Source: Rhodococcus sp. Z13
GTDB lineage: Bacteria; Actinomycetota; Actinomycetes; Mycobacteriales; Mycobacteriaceae
DNA length: 64,000 bases
Assembly (NCBI RefSeq): GCF_025837095.1
Contig: NZ_CP107551.1
Location: forward strand, 3,280,668-3,344,667
Direction of reading: 5' to 3'
In this document: one piece after another, positions 25,380-43,962 of the stretch
Position numbering within the stretch: the stretch's first letter is position 1
Layout: every line of letters starts with the position of its first letter
Notes under the pieces: model-generated
Databases searched by the model: none
What the model was told of the DNA's origin: nothing
What the model saw: only the letters and a program-made list of their open reading frames with translations
Position numbers and translations under genes: made by a program

Positions 25380-28300
25380 CTATTCCTGAGTCGGCCTCCC
25401 ATCCCACTTCGACACCTCTTTGCCCGTCAGGACCCCGTTCACGGCGTCGCCGACGATTCCCAACGCTCGCGGAGTTCCCAGCTCACCGTGGGTGAACGGG
25501 AGCGGCACGATGTCGATCGTTCCGTCCACGTGCGGGCGCCATTGCCGCGCACCGCTCGGGTCCTCCCCCTGCTCCTGCGCCGCGAAGTACACCATGTTCC
25601 CGGAGAACACGCGTGGGGCATGCTCGTCGATGAGACGCGCTGCTTCCACCGCCGCCGAGGTCAGCCCTCTCAGCTGCTGCAACGACGGTGCGAGCGACTC
25701 ACCCACGAATTCGACCACTCGCCGATGGAATTCGTCGAGCGCATCACTGGTACCGCTGGGAGACACGAAGTCCGACACCGAGATGCCGAATGCCGCGTTC
25801 AGCTCCAGATAGGTCGCCTCCTTGTCCACATCGAGGTAGCTGTCGAGCAGGACGAGAGCGGCGACCTCGTCGCCGAGTTCCTGCAGCTGCACCGCGATCT
25901 CGTGGGCGATCACCCCGCCGAGCGACCAACCCACCAGGTGGTACGGCCCGTGCTTCTGGACCTGCTTGATCTCCTCGACGTATCGGCTCGCCATCCGGCG
26001 GATCGACACCGCACGGTAGTCGGGTTCCGTCGCTGCGGGGCTCTGCAGACCGTAGATGCCGATCTCAGGATCCACATGCGGGACGAGTCCGGCATAACTC
26101 CACGACAGGCCCTGGACGGGGTGGACACAGAACAGCGCTTCACGGTCCGGGTTCCCCTTCCGCAGAGGAAGAAGGACACCGTACATGTCCACCTCTTCCC
26201 GGTCGACGCTGTCGAGGGCTTCCGTAGCACCGACGACCGCGGACACTCGTCTGCGTCCTTCGAGTTCTGCGGCGAGTCCCGCGACGTCGCTGACACGGAA
26301 GATGTCTCCGACCGGAACGGGAACTGCCAGTTTGCGTTCCAGGGTCGACACCAGGCGCACCGCCAGCAGCGAGTTGCCGCCGAGAGCGAAGAAATCATCG
26401 TCCGCACCGACCCGCTCGACCCCGAGCACCTCGGCGAACACACCCGCCACGATCTCCTCGACCGGCGTCGACGGCGCCCGGAACTCCCGCACCTCGAACA
26501 CCGGCTCCGGCAACGCCCGCCGATCCACCTTGCCCGACGCATTGAGCGGCAACTCCTCGAGCACCACCAACACCGACGGCACCATGTAACTCGGCAACGA
26601 CCCCGCCACAGCAGAGCGCACCGCATCCACATCGACCACAGCACCGGCAGCCGGCACCACATAGGCCACCAACTGCTCACCACGCACCGCATCCCGATGC
26701 ACCACCGCCACCACGACCTCGACACCCGGCTGCCCACGCAACACCGCCTCGACCTCACCGAGCTCGAGACGCTGACCACGCAACTTCACCTGGAAGTCCG
26801 CACGCCCCACATACCGCAACACACCATCGGCACGCCGCACCACCAGATCACCGGTGCGATACAACCGCTCCCCCGCACCGAACGGATCGGCGACGAACCG
26901 CTCCGCCGTCAACCCCGCCCGCCCGTGATAACCCCGAGCGAGCTGCACACCGGCCAGATACAACTCACCGACCACACCCACCGGCACCGGATGCAGACGC
27001 CCATCGAGCACACAGGCACGCACACCCGACACCGGAGAGCCGATGGGCACACTCGTCCCCTCGACCGCACCCGGCACCTCGAAGAAGGTGGCATTGACCG
27101 TCGACTCGGCCGGACCGTACACATTCACCACACGCGCAGCAGGCAGCACCCGACGAACCCGCACCGCAGTCGCCGCCGGCAACTCCTCACCACCGGCGAA
27201 GACCCACCGCACACTGCCGCACGCCACCGGATCCACCTCGGCGACGAACACATCGAGCAACGACGGCACGAACTGCACCCACGTGACCGACTGCTCGGCG
27301 ATCACCCGCGCCAGATACACCGGATCCCGATGCCCCTCCGGCGCCGCCACCACCAACCGGGCACCGACCTGCAACGGCCAGAACAACTCCCACACCGACG
27401 CATCGAACGTGATCGGCGCCTTGTGCAACACCGCATCGATCTGCGACAACGGATAGGTCGCCTGCGCCCACGCCAGCAGATTCACCACCGACGCATGCGG
27501 CACCGCCACACCCTTCGGCCGACCCGTCGACCCCGACGTGAACAACACGTACGCGGTGTTCTCCGCACGCAACGGCGCGATCCGATCGACATCGGTCACC
27601 GCCTCGGCCGACACCGCCGACAGATCCAGCGAATCGATCGCCACACCCGGGACAGACCCCTGCCCCGGCACCGCCACACCGTCACGCTCGGTGGTCAACA
27701 CCACCGCCGGAGCAGCAACCTCGAACAGATACGCATTGCGCTCGGCCGGCTGATCCGGATCGATCGGCACATACGCACCACCGGCGGCGAGCACCGCATA
27801 CATACCCACCAGCAACTCCGTCGACCGGCGCATCGCCAACGCCACCGTCGACTCCGGACCCACACCCAGAGAAATCAGATGCCGCGCAAGACGATTCACC
27901 CGAGACGCGAACTCACCATAGGTCAGCGACTCACCCTCGAACACCACCGCAACCGCATCCGGCGACCGCCGAACCTGCTCGAAGAACTCGTCGAGCAACA
28001 ACCCCCCACCGATACCGTCCGCATCGGTGGCATTCCACGTCTCGAGCACCCGCGACCGCTCGGCATCGCCGAGGATCTCGATATCCCCGACCACGGCCGA
28101 CGGTTCGGATGTCACGGCTTCGAGCACCCGCACGAACCGCTCCGCGAACGACACCACCGTGTCCTCGTCGAACAGATCCGTCGCATAGTTCAGGTCGACG
28201 AGATATGCCCCGCCGGACCCCTCGACGAACGTCCACGACAGGTCGAACTTGGCGGTGGCGGTATCCACATCCACGCCGCTGACGGTCAACCCCGGAAGTT

Positions 28301-30773
28301 CCAGAGCCGACTGTCCCAGATTCTGGAATGCCAGCATCACCTGGAACAACGGGGTCCGCGCCTGCGACCGCTCCGGATCGAGGATCTCCACCAGACGCTC
28401 GAACGGCACATCCGCATGCCCGAAGGCCTCGAGATCCGCACCCCGCACCCGCGACAACAGACCCTCGAACGACTCACCCGCATCGACCTGCGTCCGCAGA
28501 ACGAGAGTGTTGACGAACATACCCACCAGGTCGTCCAACGCGGCCTCACCACGACCGGCCACCGGGGTGCCGATCGCAATGTCGTCGGCGTTCGCCAACC
28601 GGGCCAGCAGCACCGACAACGCGGCATGGACGACCATGAACTCGGTCGCCGACGTCCGATGCGCGAGATCGGTCACGGCAGAGCGGAGTCCGGGGTCGAT
28701 GGTGAACCGGTGCGACGCACCCCGATGCGACATCACCCGTGGACGCGGCCGATCCGCCGGCAGATCGAGCCGATCCGGCACACCCGCCAGAGTCTTCGTC
28801 CAGAACCCGATCTGCGCCGAGATCAGCGACTGCGGATCGTCCTCGCTACCGAGCACCTCACGCTGCCAGATCGCGAAATCGGCATACTGCACCTCGAGCG
28901 GCGCCCACGCCGGGGCCTCACCGGCAACCCGAGACGCGTAGGCCGTGACGAGGTCCCGCGTGAGCGGCCCCATCGAGAAACCATCCGCCGCAATGTGATG
29001 CACCACCAGCACCAGCACATGCTCGGACTCCGACACCGCGAACAACCGCACCCGGAACGGCACCTCGACGGTCACATCGAAACCGACCCCGACGACCGCC
29101 GCCGCCTCGGCGAACAGATCCTCCTCGGCCACCGGCACCGGAGTCAGATCCGGCACCACCTCCGCCGCCGGCAACACCTGCTGGTAACCGACACCGTCGA
29201 GTTCGGGGTACACGGTACGCAACGACTCCTGCCGGGCGAGCACATCGGCCACCGCCGCCTGCAGCGCCGCCACATCCAGGTTGCCCGACAACCGGATCGC
29301 CACCGGGATGTTGTTCGCTGCAGACTCCGGGTTCAGCCGGTTGAGGAACCACATGCGCTGCTGCGCCAACGACAGCAATGCGAATTCCGGATGGACCGGT
29401 ACCGACGGCAGTTCCACGGTCTCCGCAGGCACCGGTTCCACCAGTTGCACCAACCCGGATTCCACCTGGGCCAGCGTCGCCGGAGTCCCGTCCGTTTCCT
29501 GCCAGTCCGTCAGCGACATATGCCCGCCGGCTCCGATCTCGGATTCGACCCGAGCCGCCAACGCCGACACCGTCGACGCCTCGAACAACAACCGCACCGG
29601 CACCGCCGTGTCCAACGCCGCACCCAGCCGCGCCGTCAACCGCATCGCGACCAGCGAGTTACCACCCAGAGCGAAGAAATCGTCGTCCACACCGACCCGC
29701 TCGACCCCGAGCACCTCGGCGAACACACCCGCCACCGTCTCCTCGACCGGCGTCGACGGCGCCCGGAACTCCCGAACCTCGAACACCGGATCCGGCAACG
29801 CCTTCCGATCCAGCTTGCCCGACGCATTGAGCGGGAACTCGTCGAGCACCACGAACTGCTCCGGCACCATGTACCGCGGCAGAGACGCACCGAGCACCGA
29901 CTGCGCAGTCGCCCGATCGAAGGTCTGATCCGGAGCGGGAACGACGTACGCGATCAGCTGATCCCGACGAACAGCTGCCACCACCTGAGACACGGCCGTG
30001 TGCTCGAGCAGAGCGGTCTCGATCTCGCCGAGCTCGATCCGCAGACCACGCAACTTCACCTGGAAGTCCGTCCGCCCGATGTACTCGAGCTCGCCATCAC
30101 CGGTCCACCGCACCAGATCACCCGTGCGATACAACCGCTCCCCCGAACCGAACGGCGACGCCACGAACCGCTCCGCCGTCAGATCCGGCCGCGCCACATA
30201 CCCCCGGGCCAACTGCACACCCGACAGATACAACTCACCCGTCACACCCACCGGAACCGGCCGCAACCGCCCATCGAGCACATACGCCCCGGTATTCCAC
30301 ACCGGCACACCCATCGGCACCGAACCACCCACGACACCGGCAACCGCACGCGCAGTCGCATGCACCGTCGCCTCCGTCGGCCCGTACAAATTGTGCAGCT
30401 CCGCATCCGAGACACGAGCGAACTGCTCGGCCACCGACATCGGGAACGCCTCACCGGCCACGAGCACCGTCCGCAACGACACACAGTCCTCACGCGAGAC
30501 CGACGTCGCGAACACCGCCAACATCGACGGCACGAACGACGTCGCCGTCACCCCACGCTCCCGGATCACCCGACCCAGATACACCGGATCCCGATGCCCG
30601 TCCGGCGCCGCCACCACCAACGACGCACCCACCGCCAACGTGCCGAACAACTCCCACACCGACACATCGAACGTGAACGGCGTCTTCTGCAACACCACAT
30701 CACCGGGACCGAACCCGTACTCCGCAGTGATCCACCGGATCTGATTCACCACCGACCCGTGCGACACCGCCAC
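25380..30773 (-). CDS. NRPS 2, C-terminal part (end of A9, T9, module 10, thioesterase), after a frameshift
   Basis: This is the 1797-codon continuation of the synthetase that starts at 40,897; the frame changes at about 30,787 where one C is missing, so the ATG at 30,773 ([11 protein letters not shown]) is not a real start. Domains: rest of A9, T9 ([12 protein letters not shown]), an unusually long linker, C10 (HHIAADGFS), A10, T10 ([12 protein letters not shown]) and TE (GWSLGG, then FTHGEL with the catalytic His). The TE should release the finished peptide by hydrolysis or cyclisation. It ends at TAG, 160 bp before the A-T-TE gene. The gene is probably intact in the organism. Confidence 0.9.
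25383..29370 (-). other. NRPS module 10 with thioesterase: C10-A10-T10-TE
   Basis: C10 about 29,370-28,070, A10 28,030-26,530, T10 26,470-26,270, TE 26,180-25,383. Code by eye D-A-W-Q-F-G-V-V-N-K; the first six match known Gln codes (DAWQFG...), so Gln or Glu is a tentative call. The TE ends the assembly line. Confidence 0.8.
28283..29335 (-). repeat. Condensation-domain repeat (C10 copy of C9)
   Basis: Near-identical to about 31,543-32,595 at an offset of 3,260 bp, one module length. It covers most of C10 including HHIAADGFS. Confidence 0.8.
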
Positions 30774-31372
30774 ACCCTTCGGCCGACCGTCGACCCCGAC
30801 GTGAAGATCACATACGCCGTATTGCCCGACCGCAACGCAGCCACCCGATCCGCATCCGACACCACCGCATCGGACACCGCCGACAGATCCAGCGAATCGA
30901 TCGCCACACTCGGGACAGACCCCTGCCCCGGCACCACCACACCGTCACGCTCGGTGGTCAACACCACCACCGGCTCGGCGACCTCGAGAATGTACCCGTT
31001 GCGCTCATCCGGCTGATCCGGATCGATCGGCACATACGCACCACCGGCGGCGAGCACCGCATACATACCCACCAGCAACTCCGTCGACCGGCGCATCGCC
31101 AACGCCACCGTCGACTCCGGACCCACACCCAGAGAAATCAGATGCCGCGCAAGACGATTCACCCGAGACGCGAACTCACCATAGGTCAGCGACTCACCCT
31201 CGAACACCACCGCAACCGCATCCGGCGACCGCCGCACCTGCTCGACGAACACCCCCGGCAACGAACCCGGACCATCGACCACACGCGCCGTGTCGTTCCA
31301 CACCTCGAGCACCCGCGACCGCTCGACCTCATCGAGCAGATCCACCTCACCCACCGGCACAGCAGGATCGGC
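30018..31372 (-). repeat. Third copy of the A2/A4-type adenylation DNA (A9)
   Basis: Near-identical to 57,861-59,216. The offset is 27,843 bp below 30,787 and 27,844 bp above it, which pins the single-base deletion. Confidence 0.82.
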
Positions 31373-34300
31373 GACGGCTGCACCGAGAACACGGGTGAAC
31401 CGGTCGGCAAAGGTTTCCATCGTCTCGGCGTCGAACAGGTCCGTCGCATAGTTCAGGTCCACGAGGTAACCGTCGCCGGCGTCGGCCACCGTGACCTGCA
31501 GATCGAACTTGGCGGTGGTCGTCTCCACGTCCACACCCGCAACCGTCAGACCCGGCAACTCCAGTTCCGACTGTCCCAGGTTCTGGAATGCCAGCATCAC
31601 CTGGAACAACGGGGTCCGCGCCTGCGACCGCTCCGGATCGAGGATCTCCACCAGACGCTCGAACGGCACATCCGCATGCCCGAAGGCCTCGAGATCCGCA
31701 CCCCGCACCCGCGACAACAGACCCTCGAACGACTCACCCGCATCGACCTGCGTCCGCAGAACGAGAGTGTTGACGAACATACCCACCAGGTCGTCCAACG
31801 CGGCCTCACCACGACCGGCCACCGGGGTGCCGATCGCAATGTCGTCGGCGTTCGCCAACCGGGCCAGCAGCACCGACAACGCGGCATGGACGACCATGAA
31901 CTCGGTCGCCGACGTCCGATGCGCGAGATCGGTCACGGCAGAGCGGAGTCCGGGGTCGATGGTGAACCGGTGCGACGCACCCCGATGCGACATCACCCGT
32001 GGACGCGGCCGATCCGCCGGCAGATCCAGCTGCTCCGGCACACCCGCCAGAGTCTTCGTCCAGAACCCGATCTGCGCCGAGATCAGCGACTGCGGATCGT
32101 CCTCGCTACCGAGCACCTCACGCTGCCAGATCGCGAAATCGGCATACTGCACCTCGAGCGGCGCCCACGCCGGGGCCTCACCGGCAACCCGAGACGCGTA
32201 GGCCGTGACGAGGTCCCGCGTGAGCGGCCCCATCGAGAAACCATCCGCCGCAATGTGATGCACCACCAGCACCAGCACATGCTCGGACTCCGACACCGCG
32301 AACAACCGCACCCGGAACGGCACCTCGACGGTCACATCGAAACCGACCCCGACGACCGCCGCCGCCTCGGCGAACAGATCCTCCTCGGCCACCGGCACCG
32401 GAGTCAGATCCGGCACCACCTCCGCCGCCGGCAGCACCTGCTGGTAACCGACACCGTCGAGTTCGGGGTACACGGTACGCAACGACTCGTGCCGGGCGAG
32501 CACATCGGCCACCGCCGCCTGCAGCGCCGCCACATCCAGGTTGCCCGACAACCGGATCGCCACCGGAATGTTGTTCACCGCCGACTCGGGCTCGAACCGG
32601 TTGAGGAACCACATGCGCTGCTGCGCCAACGACAACGGCACCCGCTCCGGACGCTCCTGCGCCACCAGCGGAGCACGACCGGCGGTGTCGAGCTGCTCGA
32701 TCCGCGCAGCCAACGCCGACACCGTCGAAGCCTCGAACAACACCCGCACCGGCACCGACGTCTCCAACGCCGTTCCCAACCGGGCAGCCACCCGCGTCGC
32801 GATCAGAGAGTTGCCGCCGAGCGCGAAGAAGTCGTCGTCCGCACCGACCCGCTCTACGCCGAGGAGTTCGGCGAACACACCCGCCACGATCTCCTCGATC
32901 GGCGTCGACGGCGCCCGGTACTGCCGGGTTTCGAACACCGGTTCCGGCAACGCGCGACGATCCAGTTTGCCGTTGACGTTCAGCGGCAGCTCGTCCATGG
33001 TCACGAACGCCGACGGCATCATGTGCGACGGCAACCGTGTCGTCAGGGCCTCCCTGACCCCGGCGGGATCGAACGCGGCGGCATCTTGCGGAACGATGTA
33101 CGCCACCAGTTGCTGACCCGTGCGAGCGGAGTCGTGCACGACCACTGCTGCCCGGGCAACGTCGGCGAGCGCTCTCAGTGCTTCCTCGATCTCGCCGAGC
33201 TCGATCCGGAAACCGCGAATCTTGACCTGGAAATCGGCACGTCCGACGTATTCGAGTTCCGGGCCTTCACCGGTTTCCGTCCACCGCACGAGGTCGCCCG
33301 TCCGGTACATCCGGGTGCCGGTCCCGAAGGGAGACGCGACGAATCGATCCGCGGTCAGATCGGCACGGTCGTGGTATCCGCGGGCCAGCTGGGCCCCGGA
33401 CAGATACAGCTCGCCCACGACTCCGACGGGGACCGGATGCAGCCGGGTGTCGAGCACCAGCAGGTCGGTGTTCCATTCGGCCGTACCGATCGGAACCGAC
33501 CTGTCATCGGCGTCGCCGACACGATGTGCCGTCACGGAGACGGCAGCCTCGGTGGGCCCGTACAGGTTGTGGACGTCCGCGCGGGAGTTCGCCCGCAGGC
33601 GCTGCGCCAACTCGGCGGGCAGGGCCTCGCCGATCGCCAGAACGAGTCGCACGGCGTCCGGCAGCCGTCGATCGCCCACGGCGAGCAACGCCTCCAGGGT
33701 GGAGGGCACCGCATGCAGCACCGTCACGGCCTGCGCGTCCAGAAGGTCCGAGAGGTAGTCCGGATCCTGCTGCCCGCCGGGCCGTGCGATCACGAGCCGG
33801 CCTCCCGACACGAGGGCGCCCCAGAACTCCCAGACCGACAGGTCGAAGGTCGCCGCGGTCTTCAGCAGCGCCGCATCCGACGCATCGAGACCGAAGAAGG
33901 TGCTCTTCCAGACGAGCTGATTGACCACCGCGGAGTGCGGTACCGAGACGCCCTTCGGCCGACCCGTCGACCCCGACGTGAACAACACGTACGCGGTGTT
34001 CTCCGGCCGCAACGGCAGGAGCCGCTCCTCGTCGGACAGCGGCGCATCCGAGTGTTCCGCGAAGGCGGGTCCGTCGATCGAGACGACCTCGACGCCGGCC
34101 ACGACCGGCAGATCGGATGCATCGCGGGTGGTTGTCAGGACCAGGACCGGCTGCGCCGCCGCGAGGATGTAGTCGTTGCGGTCGGCGGGGTGGTCTGGGT
34201 CGATCGGCACGTACGCTCCACCGGCCGTCGAGATGGCGTACATGCCCACCAGCAGGTCCACCGAACGGCAGATGGCCAGGCCCACCCGGGCTTCCGGCCC

Positions 34301-37300
34301 GACGCCCTTCGCGATCAGGTACCGCGCGAGACGGTTCACGCGAGATGCGAACCCACCGTAGGTCAAGGACTCGTCCTCGGAGACCAGCGCGATCGCGCCG
34401 GGGGCCCGCTCGACCTGTTCGGCGAACAGTGCCGGCAGGGTGGTCGCGGGTACCGTCCGCTCCTCGCCGTGTCCGACGGAGATGACCGCCGACCGTTCGG
34501 CCGAGGTGAGCACCGGCAGGTCACCGACGGAGAGGGACGTGTCGTCCGCCACGGCCTCGAGGAGCCGTACCAGGCGCTCGACGATCCCGCGCACGGTGGA
34601 CTCGTCGAACAGCGCCGAGGCATAGGTGAGCACCCCGCCGAGCCCCTGCGGCTCGCCGTCCTCACCGTAGGAGTCGCTGACGATCAGATGCAGGTCGTAC
34701 TGCGAGTTCGGATTGTCGAACTCCACTCCGGAGATCGTCAGTCCCGGAAGAGCCAGAGTCGCCTTCTCGGTGTTCTGGAACGACAGCCCCACCTGCACCA
34801 AGGGGTGGTGAGCGGTCGTCCGCACCGGGTCGAGGGCCTCGACCAGCTGTTCGAACGGCACATCGGCGTTCGCGAACGCCGCGAGGTCGACCTCCCGGGT
34901 TCGGGTCAGCAGTTCGTCGAATCGCTCGTCGCCCCGGATCCGGCTGCGAAGGACCAGAGTGTTGGCGAACTGACCGACCACGTCGTCGAGCACGGCCTCG
35001 CCCCGGCCTGCGATCGGAGTGCCGACGGCCACGTCGTCGGATCCCGACAACCGGGCCAGCAGGGCGGCCCACGTCGCCTGGACGACCATGAAGAGGGTCG
35101 TGTTCGTGCGCGACGCGACCCGCACGAGCGAGCGGTGCAGGTCGGGTGTCACAGCTACGGGGACGCTGCCGCCCGCGAAGGACTGGACGGCGGGTCGCGG
35201 GCGATCCGTCGGCAGTTCCAGCAGATCGGGGAGGTCGGCGAGCGTCTCCTTCCAGAACGAGATCTGCTGGGCCATCAGCGAATCCGGATCGGAGGGATCG
35301 CCGAGCACCTCCCGCTGCCAGAGCGCGAAGTCCGCGTACTGGACCGGCAGGGGCGACCACTGGGGCAGGTCCCCACGGGACCTCGCCTCGTAGGCCTGCA
35401 CGAGGTCGCGCGTGAACGGCGCCATGGACGAGCCGTCGGCGGCGATGTGGTGCACGACCGCGACGAGGACGTACTCGTCGGGAGCCGGCTCGAACAGCCG
35501 AATACGGAAGGGCACCTCGGTACTCACGTCGAATCCTGCGGACAGGACCTCCGCGACACGTTCGGCGATCTCGGCTTCCGAAGTCTTCTCCGGGGTGACG
35601 ACCACTCGCACGTCGGATGCCGGCAGCACCTTCTGGTAGCCGACACCGTCGATCTCCGGATACACGGTGCGCAACGACTCGTGCCGGGCCAGCACGTCGG
35701 TGACGGCCTCCTGCAGCGCCTTCACGTTCAGGCGTCCCGACAACCGGATGGCGACCGGCAGGTTGTAGGCGGTCGACTCCGGGTCGAACCGGTTGAGGAA
35801 CCACATCCGCTGCTGAGCCAGGGACAGCGGCACGTGCTCGGGACGCGGACGCGCGACCAGCTCCGCGCGCTTGCCGGCTCCGATCTCGGATTCGACCCGA
35901 GCCGCCAACGCCGACACCGTCGACGCCTCGAACAACAACCGCACCGGCACCGCCGTGTCCAACGCCGCACCCAGCCGTGCCGTCAACCGCATCGCGACCA
36001 GCGAGTTACCACCCAGAGCGAAGAAATCGTCGTCCGCACCGACCCGCTCGACCCCGAGCACCTCGGCGAACACACCCGCCACCGTCTCCTCGACCGGCGT
36101 CGATGGCGCCCGGAACTCCCGAACCTCGAACACCGGATCCGGCAACGCCTTCCGGTCCAGCTTGCCCGACGCATTGAGCGGGAACTCGTCGAGCACCACG
36201 AACTGCTCCGGCACCATGTACCGCGGCAGCGACGCACCGACGGCCTCGGTCAGTTCCTCCACCGGCACCGAGCCATCGGACCCGAACACCACGTAGGCCA
36301 CCAGACGATCACCGACCGGTGACGACACCACTTCCACCGCCGCCTGCGACACCGCAGGATGAGCGACCACAGCCGCCTCGATCTCTCCCAGCTCGATCCG
36401 CTGACCACGGAACTTGACCTGGAAATCGGTACGGCCGATGTATTCGAGCGTCCCGTCGGCGGCCCACCGCACCAGATCCCCGGTGCGGTACATGCGCTCA
36501 CCCGGAGCACCGAACGGATTCGCCACGAAACGATCCGCCGCCAGATCCGGCCGGTTCAGATAACCACGCGCCAACTGCACGCCCGCCAGATACAACTCAC
36601 CCGGAGCACCCGGCACCGTCGGATTCAGACGGGAATCCAGCACGTACACACGGCAATTCCACTGCGGCACACCGATCGACGCCGACGCCCCCGCATCCGC
36701 CCCGGTCACGTCCGCATAGGTGAACGACACCGCAGCCTCGGTCGGACCGTACAGATTGTGCACTCGCGTGCGACCGAGCCGGCGCACCTGACGCACCGTC
36801 TGCACCGGCAACGCCTCACCGATGACGAACACGTCCCGCACCGTCCCGAGCGCACCGGCCGGCACCGCCTGCGCGAACATCGACAGCATCGACGGAACGA
36901 AGTCGGTCACCGTCACCGCGTGCGTCTCGACGAGACGGGCCAGGTAGGCCGGATCACGATGCCCGTCCGGCGTCGTCACCACCAGGGTCGCACCGACCCG
37001 CAGCGGAAGGAAATAACCCCACAACGACACGTCGAACGTGGTCGCGGTCTTCTGCAGATACACGTCCTCCGGCGTCAACCGGTACTCGTGCTGCATCCAG
37101 GCCATCTGGTTGACGATCGCCTCGTGCGGCACCGCCACACCCTTGGGCCGGCCCGTCGACCCCGAGGTGAAGATCACGTACGCGGTGTTACCCGGCCGCA
37201 CCGGCGCGATCCGCTCCGCATCCGCCAACGGCTCATCCGGCACACCCGACAGATCGAGCTCGTCGACCACGAGCGTCCGAGCCGACCACTCCGACGGCAC

Positions 37301-40300
37301 CGCCACCGCATCACTCGCACGGGACAGCACCAGCACCGGACCGGCGGTCTCCAGGATGTACCGATTGCGCTCGACCGGATGCTCCGGATCGATCGGCACG
37401 TACGCACCGCCGGCAGCGACGACCGCATACATCGCCACCACCAGATCCAGCGATCGGCCCAACGCGAGCACCACACGGGACTCCGGGCCCACGCCCTGAG
37501 AAATCAGATGTCGTGCAAGGCGATTCACCCGAGAAGCGAACTCGCCGTAGGTCAGGGACTCATCCTCGAACACCACCGCAGGCGCATCCGGCGACCGCCG
37601 AACCTGCTCGAAGAACTCGTCGAGCAACAATCCCCCACCGATACCGTCCGCATCGGTGGCATTCCAGTCGCTCAGGATCGCACGACGTTCGTCGTCCTCC
37701 ATGAACTCGAGGTCGCCGATCGCCTGCTCCGGGTTGCCGAGCGCAGAGCGCAGTACGGTCTCGAATCGCCGAGCGAACGCTTCGACGGTTCCGTGTTCGA
37801 AGAGATCGACGGCGTACTGCCAGCTGACGTCGAGGGGAGCGTCGTCGTTCCCCTGCGACACGATGTTGAGCTGAAGGTCGAACTTGGAGACGACGAATCC
37901 CGCGTCGACGGCATCCACCCCGGATGCGGCGTTCGGCTCCGCGAAGTTCTGGAAGAACAGCGCCACCTGGAACAGGGGGTGCCGGTCGGTGGCCCGCGCC
38001 GGATCGAGGACCTCCACCAGACGTTCGAACGGGACGTCGGCGTTCTCGAACGCCTCGAGGTCGACGTGCTGGACCTGCTGCAGGAATTCGGTGAACGGTG
38101 TGTTCGGGTCGATGCGGGTACGCAGGACGAGGGTGTTGACGAACATGCCCACCAGATCGTCCAGCGCTTCCTCGCCACGACCGGCGATCGGGCTGCCGAC
38201 AACCACGTCCTGTTCGCCCGACAACCGCCACAACGTGACCGCGTAGAGGGCGTGTACCAGCATGAACAGCGAGACACCCTGTGTCCGGGCGAGTTCCGCG
38301 AGAGCGACGTGGACGTCCCCGTCCAGAACCGAGCGATGGACCGCACCCCGGTACGAGGGGGTCTGCGGACGCGGCCGGTCGAACGGCAGTGCGATCTGTT
38401 CCGGAAGCCCGTCCAGTGTCGTGCGCCAGTAACCGACCTGCGACGCGATGAGGCTGGTCGGATCGGACTCGTCGCCGAGCACCGTCCGCTGCCAGAGCGT
38501 GTAGTCGGCGTACTGCACCGGCAGTTCGGACCACTCCGGAGCGGACCCCGCACTGCGCGCCGTGTAGGCGGTGAGCAGGTCCCGCACGAACGGCGCCAGC
38601 GACGAGCCGTCCGCCGCGATGTGGTGCAGAACCAGGACGAGCACGTGCTCCCCGTCCGGCAGGCGCAGCAGTTCGACGCGGATCGGGATGTCGGTGGTGA
38701 CGTCGAATCCGGTGGAGGCAGCGCGCACCAACCGGGTGTGCATCTCCTCCTCGGTGACCACGTCGACCGTGAGCCGCAGGTCGACCTCGTCGATGTCGAG
38801 CACCTGCTGCCAGCCGACGCCGTCCTGCTCCGGGAAGACCGTGCGGAGAACCTCGTGACGGGCGAGCACGTCGCGGAGCGCTGCGGCCAGCACGTCGGGA
38901 CGCAGGTCTGCCGGCAACCGGACGGGCAGCGGGATGTTGTTCACCGGCGAGTCGCTGTCGAACCGGCTCAGGAACCAGATCCGTTGCTGTGCAAGCGACA
39001 ACGGGATCCGCTCGGGCCGCGGCACAGGGGCCAGCGGGATCCGGGTCCCCGTCCCCGACTGCTCGTCGAGCAGGGTGGCCAGTCCCGAGACGGTCGATGC
39101 CTCGAACAGCATCCGTACCGGCACCGTGGTGTTCGTCGCCGCGCCGATGCGGGCTGCGACGCGCGTCGCGATCAATGAGTTGCCGCCGAGGTCGAAGAAG
39201 TCGTCGTCGGCGCCGACCCGGTCCACGCCGAGGACCTCGGCGAAGACGCCCGCCACGGTCTCCTCGGCCGGAGTCGACGGCGCCCGGAACTCCCGCACCT
39301 CGAACACCGGTTCGGGCAGGGCGTCCCGGTCGAGCTTCCCGTTGGGGGTGAGCGGAATCGAGTCCAGCACGACGATCGTCGCCGGAACCATGTGGCGGGG
39401 AAGAGCTTTGCGCGCAGCGTCGAGCAGATCATCCGGATCGATCGTCGTGTCCGCGACCGGCTGGACGTAGGAGACGAGCACGTCGTCCTCGCCGGGGCCG
39501 GGGCGGGTGAGGGTGACCGCGAAGGACACCCCGGGGAGTCCCGCCAGGACGGCGTCGATCTCCCCGAGTTCGATGCGGAAACCCCGGATCTTGACCTGGA
39601 AGTCGCTGCGTCCGACGATCGTGAGGGTTCCGTCCGCACTCCGGCGCGCCAGGTCGCCCGTCCTGTACAGGCGCCCGAACAGCGTGCGGCCGGCGTCGTC
39701 CTCGGTCAGGAACGGGTTGGCGACGAATCGTGATGCGGTCAGCGAGGGACGCTCGTGATAGCCGCGTGCGACCTGCCCACCCGCGACGTACAGCTCGCCG
39801 ACCGAGCCGTCCGCGACAGGAGAGAGCCGTTCGTCCAGCACGTACGCCCTGATGCCCCGCAGTGGCAGACCGATGGGGGTTCCCTCCCCCGCCTCCAGTG
39901 GCTGGAGGTTGGTCGCGATCGTGGACTCGGTGGGTCCGTAGACGTTCACGAACCGGCGGCCGGCACCCCACCGATCCACCAGTTCCGACGAGAACCCCTC
40001 GCCGCCGACACCGAGCACCGTCAGGTCGGGCAGCCGCTGCGGATCGAGGGAGGTGAGCACCGAGGGGGTGAAGAAGGAATGCGAGACCCGCTCGGCGGCG
40101 AGGAGCGCCTCGAGTTCGTCGCCGCCGTAGACCTCGGGCGGTACGACGACGAGACACGACCCGCTCGCGGCGGCCATGAGGACCTCGAGCATCGACGCGT
40201 CGAAGCTGGGCGAGGCGAACTGGGAGACCCGCGCCTCCGGCGTCAGCTGCATGCGATCGGTCAGTTCGGGCAGAAAGGTCTCGAAACCCGCATGGGTCAC

Positions 40301-40897
40301 GACGACGCCCTTGGGCTTGCCGGTCGATCCCGAGGTGTAGATGATCCACGCCGGGTGGTCCGCGCGCAGTGTGTGCACGCGCTCGTCGTAGGTGACGGCC
40401 CGGTCGGGAACGTCCTCGAGCGAACCGAGGACGTCGGGCGCGTCGAGGACGAGCCAGTCCACGGTGGACGGCAGGTTCTCGACCACACCGCCCACGGTCA
40501 GCCCGAGGACGGCACGTGAGTCCTCGACCATGTAGCGGACCCGGTCGACCGGGTATTTCGGATCGACGGGCACGAACGCCGCTCCGGATTTGGCGACGGC
40601 CCATACGGCGACGACCGACTCGAAGGACCGGGGTACGGCGAGCGCCACCCGGTCCTCGGGGCCGATTCCCCGCTGGATGAGCAGCCGGGCCAGCTTCGAG
40701 GAGCGCGCATCGAGTTCGGCGTAGGTCAGCGATCCTCCACCGAAGCGCACCGCGACGGCGGTCGCGGACCGCTCGACCGCAGCGCCGAAGATCTGGGGCA
40801 GCAGCAGAGCGCGAGTGCGGGCCTGTCGCCGTGGCCGGTTCGGCCGGGGACGGCGCCCTTCGCGTCCGGTCCGGGCATCGGTTCCGTGCGGTGTCAT
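30746..40897 (-). CDS. NRPS 2, N-terminal part (A6-T6, modules 7 and 8, C9, start of A9), before a frameshift
   Basis: Begins with ATG at 40897 (GAGGTGG ribosome site upstream) directly into an adenylation domain, without a condensation domain. The first 30 residues contain ten arginines ([20 protein letters not shown] onward). Domain order: A6-T6, C7-A7-T7, C8-A8-T8, C9-A9. All C domains have HHIAADG and the [11 protein letters not shown] start typical of LCL domains. The frame ends in [12 protein letters not shown] where other copies read [14 protein letters not shown]: a one-base deletion at 30,787-30,788. Together with the next part it would be about 5,170 residues with four full modules and one split module. 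Confidence 0.92.
31543..32595 (-). repeat. Condensation-domain repeat (C9 copy)
   Basis: Partner of 28,283-29,335. The identity continues on the far side into the N-terminal part of the adjacent A domains (27,620-27,960 vs 30,880-31,230). Confidence 0.8.
32680..35850 (-). other. NRPS module 8: C8-A8-T8
   Basis: C8 about 35,850-34,500 (HHIAADGSS), A8 34,450-32,960, T8 32,910-32,690. Code by eye D-L-W-H-L-I-L-V-S-K; it partly resembles serine codes (DVWHL...), a weak suggestion only. L residue expected. Confidence 0.78.
35880..39040 (-). other. NRPS module 7: C7-A7-T7
   Basis: C7 about 39,040-37,690 (HHIAADGSS), A7 37,650-36,160, T7 36,120-35,890. Code by eye D-V-W-D-F-I-L-V-S-K, unassigned. 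L residue expected. Confidence 0.78.
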
Positions 40898-43350
40898 TCC
40901 GACACCACCTCGTCACGGCACAGGACGGACCCGAACTCGTTCACCAAAGCGAACCACCCTTTCGCATTCCGGGGCAACGTCCTCGCCGCTCCCCTACCAC
41001 GCCGGCGCGGACTTCCTCGACTCGCTCCTGGCACCGCTGGTACGTGGTACGGGCGATGCAACGTACGCTGCATCGCCCGTACCACCTCACGCCGAACTCA
41101 CTTCCCGAAGTGCGCACTCCAGGAGCCGAGAGCAACGACATCTACCGCGCCGCTGCCGTCCTCGGCCGGCGTGTCCGTGTCTTCCACGATGAAACACTCC
41201 AGGTCATCCAGCGAAGTCGTATCCACCTTACCGGGTGCGTCGGACCCCACGACCGCGTGAGTGACCCACTCGTCCGCGAGGACATCCGTGAGGTCGTCCC
41301 CGGATCCGTTTCCGTTACCCGTCGTCACATAGGCGGCACCGGCGGCACCGGCCAGCAACGGGGTGAGCGCCTTGCCGTGGCCTTCGCCCGACCCACCGTA
41401 GAACAGCCTCGACTCGTAGGTGACACCGAAGCGTTCCTGACTGTTCTCCAGCCACCCCGCCAGGGATCCGTGATCCACGACACCCACCCGGGAGCCGCTC
41501 ACGTGGACCCAGGCCGGATCGTCGGGCGTCAGTCCCCGCAGTCGGTCCGTGTAGGTGACCTGAGCGGCGGACGCCTCGTCGACGCGGGCTTCGACCGCCG
41601 GATCCGTCAGATCGAGGATCCGGGGGTGGCCGGTCACGGCACCGCGCGAGAGGACCAGTTCCACGGCGGGCGTCGCCTCGGGGAGCGGCTCCCCCGACGG
41701 ATCGAGCACGAGGAAGGCCGCGCCCGACTTGAGGACCGCCCACAGTGCGCAGACGCCGTCGACGGAGCCGTCCAGGACCACACCGACGACATCGCCGGTG
41801 CCGATCCCCTCCTCGATCAGCAGCCTCGCGATCTGCGACGACCTCCGGTCGATCTCCCGGTAGGTGACCTCGTCGCCGTCCACCGACACCGCAGGAGCCT
41901 CCGGATCCTGCTCCACGTTGGCCGTGAACAGCTGGGACACCACCCGGGTGGACCTGCCGGAGGTACCGGTCTCCTGTTCGGCTGCTCCCGAGGTCAGAGC
42001 CCGGCGTTCCTCGTCCGACAGGATCTCGACGTCACCCACCGGAACCGAGGAGTCGGTCGTGACCGCGTCGAGGACGCGGACGAACCGGTCGGAGAGCTTC
42101 TCGACGGTGGCCCGGTCGAACAGATCGGCTGCGTAGATCCATTCCCCGACGAATCCGTTTCCGTTGTCGGCGAGAGTGAGCTGCAGATCGAACTTCGCGG
42201 TCGGAGCGCCCCCCTGGAGCGGTTCGATCGTCAGGCCGGGCAACGTGAACTCGGCCTGACCCATGGGCTCGACCGACAGGACCACCTGGATCAGCGGCGC
42301 CGCCGTGCCCTTCGGTACGACCTCGTCCACGATCCGCTCGAACGGCAGGTCCGCGTTGTCGAGTGCCTCCAGGTCCGCCGTGCGCACCCGGTCCACCAGT
42401 TCGGCGAACGGAAGCGACGGGTCGAGACTCGTCCGGAGCGGCAACGTGTTGACGAACATGCCGACGAGGTCGTCGAGCTCGGAGATGCCGCGACCTGCGA
42501 CCGGCGTACCGATCGCGAAGTCCCGCGCACCGCTGAGGCGCGTGACCAGCACCGCGAGAGCACTGTGGACGACCATGAACAGGGTCGCGTTGTGTGCCCG
42601 GGCGAGTGCGGTCAGCCGTTCCTGGACGTCGGCACCCACGGTGAAGCGGACGGATCCACCCGCCGGCGACGGGTTCGACGTACGAGGACGGTCGGTCGGC
42701 AGATCGATCTGCTGCGGCATCCCCGCGAGCGCGTCCCGCCAGTAGGCGAGCTGCCGGGCGACCAGGGACTCGTCGTCCGACTCGTCTCCCATCACCGTGC
42801 GCTGCCACAGGGCATAGTCCGCGTACTGGACGGGCAACGGCTTCCAGCCGGGCGCCGCATCCCGGGTGCGTGCCAGGTACGCCGTCATCATGTCCCGTCC
42901 CAGGGGAGCCATCGACTCACCGTCGGCGGTGATGTGGTGCACGACGAACGCCAGCACGTGGTCCTCGGCGCCGAGTTCGAACAGGCGGACCCGAACCGGC
43001 GGACGCTGCGTGACGTCGAAGCCCTCGTTCAGCATCGTCGCCGCCTGTTCGAACAGGTCCGATTCGGAGTCGACCCGGACGTGCCCGACGGACAGCCCGG
43101 CCTCCTCCGGCGCCAGAACCTCCTGGTACGGGCCGTCCTGATCGCTCGGGTAGCGGGTGCGCAGCGATTCGTGCCGTGCCACCAGATCGGCGACCGCGGC
43201 GTCGATCGCATCCCGGTCGAGTGCACCCTTCAGACGCAGCGCCATCGGGATGTTGTAGACCGGCGACGTGGTGTCCATCTGGTTGAGGAACCACATCCGC
43301 TGCTGCGCCAGGGACAGCGGGATACGCTCCGGCCGGTCCCCTGCCGTGAT
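39070..43350 (-). other. Split NRPS module 6: C6 (+ degenerate A tail) on NRPS 1, A6-T6 on NRPS 2
   Basis: C6 (43,350-42,010) has no functional A partner in its own protein; the tail 41,940-41,098 is a decayed half A domain. A6 (40,800-39,310) and T6 (39,290-39,070; [11 protein letters not shown]) start the next protein. A6 code by eye D-A-L-F-G-G-V-I-A-K, unassigned. Product line logic requires C6 to work in trans with A6-T6. Confidence 0.75.
41044..41085 (-). terminator. 17-bp perfect hairpin between NRPS 1 and NRPS 2
   Basis: Arms 41044-41060 (GTGGTACGGGCGATGCA) and 41069-41085 are exact complements around an 8-base loop ACGTACGC. It starts 12 bp after the NRPS 1 stop, in the 200-bp gap to NRPS 2. 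No T-run follows in either direction. It may be a terminator or attenuator that lowers NRPS 2 relative to NRPS 1, or an RNA processing site. Confidence 0.6.
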
Positions 43351-43962
43351 CGGCGGGCGCGACACCGTCTCCGTGACCGTGCCGATCGCGACCGCCAACT
43401 GCTCGACGGTGGGTGCTTCGAACAGTGTCCGCACGGGCACCTTGGTGTCGAACGCCGCACCGAGGCGTGCTGCGACCTTGGTCGCCAGCAGCGAGTTGCC
43501 GCCGAGAGCGAAGAACGAATCGTCCGCACCGACCCGCTCCACACCGAGCACCTCGGCGAACACACCCGCAACGATCTCCTCCACCGGAGACGACACCGCC
43601 CGGAACTCCGAAGAACTGGTGAACTCCGGCGCCGGCAACGCCCGACGATCCAACTTGCCGTTCGCCGTCAACGGCAACGCCTCGAGCACCACCACCGCAT
43701 CCGGAACCATGTACTCCGGCAGGAACCGACCCGACGCCTCGATCGCCGCGGCCGCATCGACCGCACAACCGGTCCGCGGCACCACATAACCGACCAACCG
43801 CTCACCGAGCCGCTCGTCGACCACCACCGCAGCCACCGACTGCGCCACACCCTCGACCTGCAGCAACGCCGCCTCGACCTCACCGAGCTCGATACGGAAA
43901 CCACGCAACTGCACCTGCGAATCGGCCCGACCACATATTCGAGATGCCCATCGGCATTCCAC
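41098..43962 (-). CDS. NRPS 1, C-terminal part (end of A5, T5, C6, degenerate A tail), after a frameshift
   Basis: Continuation of the giant synthetase after a one-base loss near 43,931; the ATG at 43,962 is not a real start. It contains the end of A5 ([30 protein letters not shown]), T5 ([14 protein letters not shown]), C6 ([24 protein letters not shown] type), and then about 280 residues resembling only the first half of an adenylation domain. That tail keeps the A1- and A2-like motifs (TYREIDRRSSQIARLL, LKSGAAFLVLDP) but has lost the ATP-binding TSGSTGxPKG loop, the FDxS motif, and everything from A5 onward, and ends in a Glu/Asp-rich stretch (VEDTDTPAEDGSGAVD). Confidence 0.9.
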   Translation of the reverse strand: MECRWASRICGRADSQVQLRGFRIELGEVEAALLQVEGVAQSVAAVVVDERLGERLVGYVVPRTGCAVDAAAAIEASGRFLPEYMVPDAVVVLEALPLTANGKLDRRALPAPEFTSSSEFRAVSSPVEEIVAGVFAEVLGVERVGADDSFFALGGNSLLATKVAARLGAAFDTKVPVRTLFEAPTVEQLAVAIGTVTETVSRPPITAGDRPERIPLSLAQQRMWFLNQMDTTSPVYNIPMALRLKGALDRDAIDAAVADLVARHESLRTRYPSDQDGPYQEVLAPEEAGLSVGHVRVDSESDLFEQAATMLNEGFDVTQRPPVRVRLFELGAEDHVLAFVVHHITADGESMAPLGRDMMTAYLARTRDAAPGWKPLPVQYADYALWQRTVMGDESDDESLVARQLAYWRDALAGMPQQIDLPTDRPRTSNPSPAGGSVRFTVGADVQERLTALARAHNATLFMVVHSALAVLVTRLSGARDFAIGTPVAGRGISELDDLVGMFVNTLPLRTSLDPSLPFAELVDRVRTADLEALDNADLPFERIVDEVVPKGTAAPLIQVVLSVEPMGQAEFTLPGLTIEPLQGGAPTAKFDLQLTLADNGNGFVGEWIYAADLFDRATVEKLSDRFVRVLDAVTTDSSVPVGDVEILSDEERRALTSGAAEQETGTSGRSTRVVSQLFTANVEQDPEAPAVSVDGDEVTYREIDRRSSQIARLLIEEGIGTGDVVGVVLDGSVDGVCALWAVLKSGAAFLVLDPSGEPLPEATPAVELVLSRGAVTGHPRILDLTDPAVEARVDEASAAQVTYTDRLRGLTPDDPAWVHVSGSRVGVVDHGSLAGWLENSQERFGVTYESRLFYGGSGEGHGKALTPLLAGAAGAAYVTTGNGNGSGDDLTDVLADEWVTHAVVGSDAPGKVDTTSLDDLECFIVEDTDTPAEDGSGAVDVVALGSWSAHFGK

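Follow-up and report, generated by a model that had tools for sequence, protein, structure and literature searches.

For the subunits of nonribosomal peptide synthetases (NRPSs), docking had previously been described at T|C and E|C borders. Beta-hairpin docking domains are short end domains that act at T|C junctions. Short end domains at a T|C junction also characterize PAX-type docking in the accessible part of its description (PMC9113145). According to the passages available, the COM domains of the tyrocidine and bacitracin NRPSs work at E|C junctions through a helix-in-hand arrangement, and their trans form is suggested by the authors to have originated by gene splitting (PMC12402864, PMC9113145). 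Among large assembly lines, NRPS cluster #20 of Nocardia otitidiscaviarum has two thioesterase proteins; the accessible text says that its right half is widely conserved in Rhodococcus, leaves open whether the product has 12 or 19 residues, and mentions neither a docking device nor an A fragment (PMC4035055).

The window, that is, the whole stretch of DNA that was analysed, comprises 64,000 nt of Rhodococcus sp. Z13 (NZ_CP107551.1, 3,280,668-3,344,667), and the feature lies on its minus strand. An earlier note on this DNA had placed the split between two proteins, NRPS 1 and NRPS 2, inside a module, an observation that is confirmed on the minus strand with two corrections. One ORF (43962-41098) holds the end of A5, T5, C6 and then a 281-residue tail; the next (40897-30746) starts with ATG and continues with an Arg-rich leader and complete A6 and T6 domains. 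The acceptor side of C6 would be served in trans by T6 of this next protein. NRPS 1 does end in C6 and a partial A domain, but not, as had been thought, in one open frame, because the frame changes near 43.9 kb: the long frame of NRPS 1 runs to a stop at 43668, T5-C6-tail is encoded in another frame opening at 43962, and the gene is thus frame-broken in this assembly. Relatives have intact copies of the junction. A second frame change lies near 30770, in NRPS 2. The features are the following:

43668..43962, minus strand: overlap of the two NRPS 1 frames; gene frame-broken here in the assembly
43654..43881, minus strand: C-terminal subdomain of A5, in the tail's frame (PF13193)
43393..43572, minus strand: T5 carrier domain, donor for C6 (PF00550)
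41944..43329, minus strand: C6 condensation domain (PF00668, 4-456 of 456)
41101..41943, minus strand: pseudo-adenylation tail that closes the protein (281 aa); decayed remnant of an A core's N-terminal half, without ATP loop or FDxS
41098-41100, minus strand: stop codon of the tail
40898..41097, minus strand: intergenic gap, 200 bases
40805..40897, minus strand: leader with which the downstream protein begins, Arg-rich (10 Arg among its first 30 residues)
39218..40804, minus strand: A6, complete adenylation domain, the tail's partner
39014..39277, minus strand: T6 carrier domain, with a match that overlaps the last part of the A6 match
30746..40897, minus strand: downstream NRPS, first open frame, leader-A-T-C-A-T-C-A-T-C-A(part)
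25380..30773, minus strand: downstream NRPS continued in another frame, A(part)-T-C-A-T-thioesterase

Several details of the earlier description of the two ends hold. The acidic run quoted for the NRPS 1 tail is present, and the whole tail is acidic (16 K+R, 46 D+E, net charge -30). NRPS 2 opens with a complete A6-T6, A6 covering positions 4-384 of the 384 of PF00501, the only Pfam match of leader-A6; the ten Arg among the first 30 leader residues are also there.

The tail had been described as A-like only up to motif A2. It is indeed an A fragment, but its likeness reaches about A5: whereas Pfam AMP-binding recognises only the first 79 of 384 profile positions in the window tail, TIGR01733 matches residues 27-185, and a profile of the tail family's divergent half aligns with TycA 170-312. 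By sequence and model it has the A-core fold of catalytic NRPS A domains (PF00501/TIGR01733). The ATP loop (A3) and FDxS (A4) are absent as reported, and so is everything from about A5 onward (A5-A10 and Asub), the protein ending near A5. The ATP-loop pattern occurs in 0/93 tails, against 120/132 other A domains. The pseudo-A is about 280 aa long with a median net charge of -23, and across 67 non-redundant tails R179, G202, W226, H229, D247 and L248 are conserved at 1.00 (two decimals). AlphaFold2 predicts the tail to be folded as half of an A core. Its C6-tail model aligns 721 of 743 residues with the Txo2 C-A didomain, but the match has an rmsd of 22 A across both domains and the pTM is 0.64, so the relative placement of C6 and tail is not fixed in the model, which neither supports nor contradicts the proposal that the remnant keeps the usual C-A interface.

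The C-tail model is otherwise well folded, and one might suppose that the pseudo-A merely stabilises the C domain or the protein end while something else joins the subunits; in glidonin, likewise, module 13 has partial A and T domains that may maintain the correct fold of that protein, as far as the available account goes (PMC10587159). Such a folding role seems unlikely to be the whole explanation, as it accounts neither for the selected Arg-rich leader on the next protein, nor for the residues common to tail and partner A, nor for the fact that tails end proteins and have A-first partners next to them.

The tail is not a local scar, and all 18 genomes of the genus carry one. With the divergent-half profile, tails score at least 98 bits and other A domains at most 95; a single tail, the short one of L167, falls below (84 bits), and three ORF-end fragments (5-21 bits) that satisfied the end rule were left out of the tail count. 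Among the matches listed, 75 of 80 named loci have a protein that ends with the tail. Of the five exceptions, three are matches inside partner-type A domains (L102, L139, L165) and two are tails truncated where the locus ends (L117, L148). The earlier note had proposed a search for C-terminal fragments paired with basic-leader A-first proteins, and this pairing is widespread: an A-first ORF lies within 1.5 kb of 68 of the 75 protein-ending tails among the loci listed, and all 66 partner leaders measured are basic. Four of the seven remaining tails are at a locus end, no partner was seen within about 4 kb of those of L147 and L167, and in L094 the Arg-leader protein lies about 3.6 kb from the tail with other ORFs between them. 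Other ORFs also separate tail and leader protein in G008, at a distance of 2 kb. The separated pairs G008 and L094 make translational coupling or read-through unlikely as the cause of the pairing.

A survey of 60 loci, some of them repeats and partly overlapping the training genomes, gave 47 scores of at least 118, all C-terminal and without the ATP-loop pattern; the other 13 score 72-94, 12 of them are not C-terminal and three lack the pattern too. With 9-11 candidates per genome scored, matches of at least 97 bits come only from the GTDB family of the window, the draws from the order (348) and class (394) overlapping and their share outside the family not being stated. The earlier expectation of finding the tail in "other Mycobacteriales" was therefore too wide. 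A hand count, with frames checked in part, puts the family genomes that have a match of at least 97 bits at about 107 of 401. A full A-T in the tail's place after C6, which had been named as evidence against a docking role, is absent from the 14 cluster stretches mapped.

The leaders of the partner proteins have a median of 10 Arg in 35 residues, versus 3 ahead of internal A domains (7-14, n=66, versus 1-7, n=31, the 35-aa stretch possibly taking in residues ahead of the start codon), and a median net charge of +7 versus -5. Over the last 25 codons, Arg makes up 35% in frame and 11-13% in the other two forward frames, 17% being expected from composition and 33% being reached in one reverse frame. 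Leader pN/pS is 0.37, versus 1.00 in the stretch preceding the leader, for pairs preselected by a leader identity of at least 50%, which lowers the 0.37. The in-frame excess and pN/pS speak against a chance Arg-richness of GC-rich DNA, even with one reverse frame about as Arg-rich and the pairs preselected.

Arg leaders also occur, without an adjacent tail, on the first proteins of five clusters (G132, G388, G348, G080 and G270), so the leader may have a further role. These proteins could suggest that tail or leader recruits another partner (an MbtH-like protein, a tailoring enzyme, a membrane or nucleic acid) and that the pairing is a by-product of operon order. This is very improbable given that the pairing is kept where other ORFs separate tail and leader, and that at the other C|A junction of these lines the A-first proteins have no Arg leader: the 35 aa ahead of A contain 0-1 Arg in 6/6 junctions shown (G000, G005, G006, G008, G052 and G170).

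The comparison of dN/dS proposed in the earlier note indicates purifying selection on the tail, with a median of 0.28 and values below 1 in 58/58 pairs. The tail values are about twice those of partner A and C, and exceed partner A in 52/58 pairs; the constraint is real but looser than on either. A neutrally decaying scar of a gene split would fit this excess over partner A, the loss of the catalytic motifs and the two frame changes at the locus in this genome. Yet the dN/dS below 1 in every pair, the six residues conserved across the non-redundant tails and the single old origin of the tails make this reading barely credible; neutral decay, as one sense of the "scar" that had been suggested, is contradicted by the tail dN/dS and the leader pN/pS.

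The sampled tails form one clade both in a quick tree with 69 tail rows (SH-aLRT 100) and in a second tree with 26 (100/100), and they stand closest to the A domains of the partner proteins. In the former the window tail joined one long branch, L046, which was left out of the 80-row tree. Nine residues are common to tails and partner A, each being present in <30% of the remaining A domains. Distances among tails correlate with those among partners (r 0.76 over 80 pairs, 0 of 2000 permutations; partial r 0.58 with C taken into account), as do those of tail and C (r 0.66), and the correlation between tail and partner partly reflects shared descent. The partner A group needs three changes on the quick tree and four on the tree with 26 tail rows, where tails and partners together need three; a constraint that unites them in a single clade passes the AU test (p 0.27). 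The shared residues favour a sister relationship of tails and partner A domains, of which this AU value is no proof. The most likely origin of the pseudo-A is a single event in which a partner-kind A domain had its N-terminal half duplicated as a C-A-T module split.

Taken together, these sequence data and models indicate a recurring pair whose tails have one origin, whose two parts are both selected and oppositely charged, and whose pseudo-A is predicted to fold as an A core. A conserved C-terminal end matched by an N-terminal one across a subunit junction, as seen here, is what NRPS docking domains generally show. There is a good probability that tail and leader together form a docking device, one half each, for a module divided between C and A. 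The upstream protein would close with C and a pseudo-A, a copy of an A domain's N-terminal half that folds but is blind to ATP; the downstream protein would open with a short leader rich in Arg and go on with an intact A-T. Their docking would set A6-T6 beside C6, allowing C6 to link the T5-bound peptide with the amino acid carried by T6. Tail and leader protein would bind through contacts of the leader with acidic residues, through contact of the pseudo-A with the partner A, or through both. The earlier idea that the remnant docks NRPS 2 electrostatically stands as to the conserved, oppositely charged pair; the putative electrostatic contact itself fits the charges. The proposed modelling of the tail with A6, done as a tail-leader-A chain, gave a pTM of 0.70, by estimate above what one domain alone could give, a value obtained with 6 sequences, for two paralogous domains joined in a single chain, and without PAE. 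The leader is disordered in this model (pLDDT 24-36), so no specific contact is predicted, and with a pTM that is only suggestive, physical binding for chain transfer is putative.

The 14 cluster stretches contain 36 Arg leaders against 20 tails, of which two score 86 and 89 bits. There are more leaders than tails in nine stretches, equal numbers in five and fewer leaders in none; in five stretches the first protein has a leader without a visible tail, and leaders remain in excess in 7/14 without those five. Several leader proteins bear a thioesterase. This, with the excess of leaders, suggests branching, although several stretches are cut and the excess is therefore no proof. It is conceivable, if somewhat doubtful, that an upstream protein ending in a tail can pass its peptide on to any of several alternative leader proteins, a single locus thereby producing a family of peptides. 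Some leader proteins would extend the peptide and end in a tail again (A-T-C-A-T-C-tail), and others would end with their own thioesterase (A-T-C-A-T-TE, or longer). If leaders do share tails, the multi-thioesterase loci of Rhodococcus and Nocardia would be explained and their product prediction would become testable.

The tail-leader pair probably reconnects the two halves of split giant NRPSs in Rhodococcus and Nocardia relatives, and may give a single upstream protein a choice among several endings. A device for a module cut between C and A would be a further docking class and, if true, its connector would be a catalytic domain turned to this use, built from the dead half of the kind of domain that was cut off. 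It might allow A-T units to be swapped behind a fixed C domain, and its single origin, clear sequence signatures and simple basic partner make it testable. The literature searched includes the accessible parts of PMC9113145, PMC12402864, PMC4035055, PMC5550956, PMC11433410, PMC11186497, PMC11253843 and PMC10587159; nowhere in it is a C-terminal A fragment described together with an Arg-rich leader on the partner, which is weak evidence as most subscription papers lie outside it. The best reading is that of a docking class for C|A-split modules, undescribed in this literature and seen in one GTDB family only.

As far as the available accounts go, the device would resemble COM domains in that the element which docks the subunits of an NRPS also sets the adjacent domains in place. 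It differs from them in its junction and its parts: COM domains join E to C by a helix-in-hand, whereas here the upstream protein ends in C-pseudoA, the downstream one starts with A-T, and a decayed half of an A core faces an Arg leader. The C|A junction likewise separates it from the T|C junctions of PAX-type and beta-hairpin docking. With glidonin and kutzneride it shares, in the published passages accessible, a non-catalytic A fragment retained in a module, which in kutzneride is required for an A domain acting in trans. The glidonin A* keeps the C-terminal subdomain and has lost the core (PMC10587159), whereas the tail keeps the N-terminal half of the core and ends before Asub; here, moreover, the protein ends at the fragment and is followed by an A-first subunit with a basic leader. 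The TomB adaptor, from what its accessible text describes, is also a non-catalytic domain for inter-subunit recognition, but a PCP-like one that recruits the donor carrier at the N-terminus of a C domain, so that both parent domain and junction differ (PMC11186497). The likeness to cluster #20 is that of a large two-thioesterase line, compared by its partial description and without implying identity with the present locus (PMC4035055). Finally, RXP-type docking, in the part of its account available, also lets subunits act in varied order and yields peptide libraries, but its subunits have a single module, whereas those considered here have several, with a pseudo-A tail and, we infer, alternative terminating proteins (PMC6195595).

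The NRPS locus is a giant one on the minus strand, covering genome positions ~3375391 to 3306050; the window spans genome 3280668-3344667. In the window, the upstream NRPS (NRPS 1) ends with a carrier domain (T5), a condensation domain (C6) and 281 further residues (the tail), and the downstream NRPS (NRPS 2), found 200 bases beyond the upstream stop, is ordered Arg-rich leader, adenylation (A) domain A6, T6. This layout, proposed in the earlier note, stands in essence. However, NRPS 1 is not one open frame: its long frame has a stop at window position 43668, and T5-C6-tail belongs to a different one that begins at 43962. A second frame change lies in NRPS 2, near 30770 (window ~30746-30773). 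In this one-contig genome, the two frame changes could be either assembly errors or real lesions and beginning decay; in relatives, the corresponding junction lies within one frame. A separate A-T-thioesterase protein of 883 aa (window 22568-25219, minus strand), without an Arg leader, directly follows the NRPS genes.

The tail, a decayed N-terminal half of an A domain, is recurrent. Used as a query on 18 genomes of the genus, it has matches at 35-44% identity besides itself, and the stretches fetched around them contain 20 protein-ending tails in 15 genomes. The divergent-half profile has a match of at least 122 bits in 18/18 of these genomes, each with a frame seen ending at the tail match and lacking the ATP loop. 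A scan of named genomes gave at least 80 loci, those listed coming from Rhodococcus, Prescottella, Rhodococcoides, Nocardia, Antrihabitans, Aldersonia, Williamsia, Millisia and Smaragdicoccus. The tail is the end of the protein in 75 of the 80 loci listed, the other five being matches within partner-type A domains or cut loci. The ATP-loop pattern is absent from all 93 tails (67 non-redundant) vs present in 120 of 132 other A domains; conservation in the tails is 1.00 (two decimals) at R179, G202, W226, H229, D247 and L248. Their median net charge is -23 (range -34 to -13); the corresponding medians are -11 for other A domains from these loci (n = 64) and -13 for A-first ones (n = 68). Tails are separable from ordinary A domains by profile score: 47 of 60 survey loci score at least 118 bits, all C-terminal and without the ATP-loop pattern, and 13 score 72-94 bits, 12 of them not C-terminal. 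Draws of 348 genomes from the order and 394 from the class gave no match of at least 97 bits outside the window's GTDB family. The C domain before the tail (73 loci) is LCL-like in 58 cases, of another subtype in nine and unclear in six; thus, tails are not tied to a single kind of C domain.

Loci with a WPLSPLQxGLLFHA-like C domain (the subtype of the nine) before the tail: L089, L093, L094, L121, L127, L136, L144, L146, L159

All tails fall in one clade, both in a carefully built 80-sequence tree (26/26 tails; support 100/100) and in a quick tree of 176 (69/69; SH-aLRT 100). Other tails aside, the nearest sequences to the window tail in the 80-sequence tree are the A domains of partner proteins, and the best-scoring non-tail A domains are mostly partner A domains as well. 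Tails and partner A domains share E11, S35, W68, K72, R136, S178, R179, L222 and H229 against other A domains; the ATP loop is gone from the tails, as are FDxS and some neighbouring residues, and P17, D142, E177 and W226 are specific to them. The AU test does not reject a tree that joins tails and partner A domains in a single clade (p = 0.27). Tail dN/dS is 0.28 (0.09-0.56) over 58 close pairs (dS 0.08-0.6), all 58 below 1, vs 0.12 for partner A and 0.14 for C (52 pairs); the pairs are non-independent, since some genomes are present under two locus names, and 19 disjoint pairs give 0.275 for the tail. Tail distances correlate better with those of partner A (r = 0.76, 80 pairs) than with those of C (r = 0.66); controlling for C leaves a partial correlation of 0.58.

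An A-first ORF lies within 1.5 kb of 68 of the 75 protein-ending tails; among the 20 genus tails, it adjoins in 16 and lies 2 kb further in one (genome G008), and the locus or contig ends in three. The 35 residues before partner A contain 7-14 Arg (median 10, n = 66), vs 1-7 before internal A domains (median 3, n = 31). The leader of most Nocardia loci is a short conserved peptide (MTRPxRxRPTRxRRPRVT-like). Over the last 25 codons of 72 leaders, Arg amounts to 35% in frame, whereas composition predicts 17% and the two remaining forward frames have 11-13%, with the caveat that one reverse frame likewise reaches 33%. Leader pN/pS is 0.37 vs 1.00 further upstream in the same 567 pairs (mostly Nocardia), which were picked at 50% leader identity or more, a choice that lowers the leader figure. 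In our reading, the leader is translated and under selection.

Leaders and tails are not equally numerous. Fourteen cluster stretches contain 20 tails and 36 leaders, with leaders exceeding tails in nine, equalling them in five and never fewer. The first NRPS of five stretches (genomes G132, G388, G348, G080 and G270; L258-L268), all from one genus (g23, presumably Nocardia), has another leader type (RRRRSxSPxFGQLL-like) and no tail protein visible upstream; the same type follows a tail in loci L099 and L151. These leader-first proteins explain part of the excess and count against strict pairing. In several lines, a run of Arg-leader proteins follows the last tail. Genome G005 combines two tails with four leaders, and three of its leader proteins carry thioesterases (two are A-T-C-A-T-TE, and a protein of five modules follows). 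Genome G008 has the same counts, genome G007 likewise has two tails and four leaders, and the line in the window has a single tail and a single leader. That one tail serves several endings is conceivable, if somewhat on the improbable side. The consulted sections of a Nocardia survey describe two thioesterases in one cluster and leave the product length open (PMC4035055).

The complete Rhodococcus lines have a different C/A device one junction before the tail/leader junction, and thus two kinds of C/A joint. At this second joint, the C domain at the end of the upstream protein is followed by a short A1-like stretch and a helical-looking one. The downstream protein begins with a homologous piece ahead of its A domain, and the 35 residues preceding that domain contain 0-1 Arg (6/6 junctions). 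In the window's own line, both protein ends carry such pieces, which match no Pfam or NCBIfam model:

genome 3353924-3354262 (L039:9257-9595), minus strand, second-joint piece just outside the window
genome ~3354392-3354766 (L039:9725-10099), minus strand, second-joint piece just outside the window

The N-terminal piece has a match in 17 of 18 genus genomes. The probe for the second-joint piece also matches an Arg-leader protein of genome G052 and the tail protein of G061, in both cases in the A1 region, which we read as overlap. A small stand-alone protein is homologous to this piece (L229:3307-3744, plus strand, genome 1555444-1555719; L232:3455-4231, minus strand); short-frame matches of this kind occur in nine of the genus genomes. 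It matches no family model and, in the two cases inspected, adjoins an apparent carboxylesterase gene, judged by eye only.

The tail and leader probably form a docking device. The pseudo-A would be a socket behind C, and the Arg leader with partner A the plug; once plugged in, T6 could reach the acceptor side of C6. Sequence and model establish the recurrence, origin, selection and fold of the pair; its binding, the electrostatic part of it and its geometry are what we infer.

Our literature search found no account of a pseudo-A tail with an Arg leader in the parts of the sources consulted. These describe COM and PAX docking and name beta-hairpin docking (PMC9113145, section 11; PMC12402864), and report an adaptor that folds like a carrier domain (PMC11186497). 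The glidonin and kutzneride lines contain partial A domains (PMC10587159), but, as far as the consulted part of that source goes, their content differs from that of the pseudo-A tail. We file the tail/leader pair as a new class within the NRPS docking domains.
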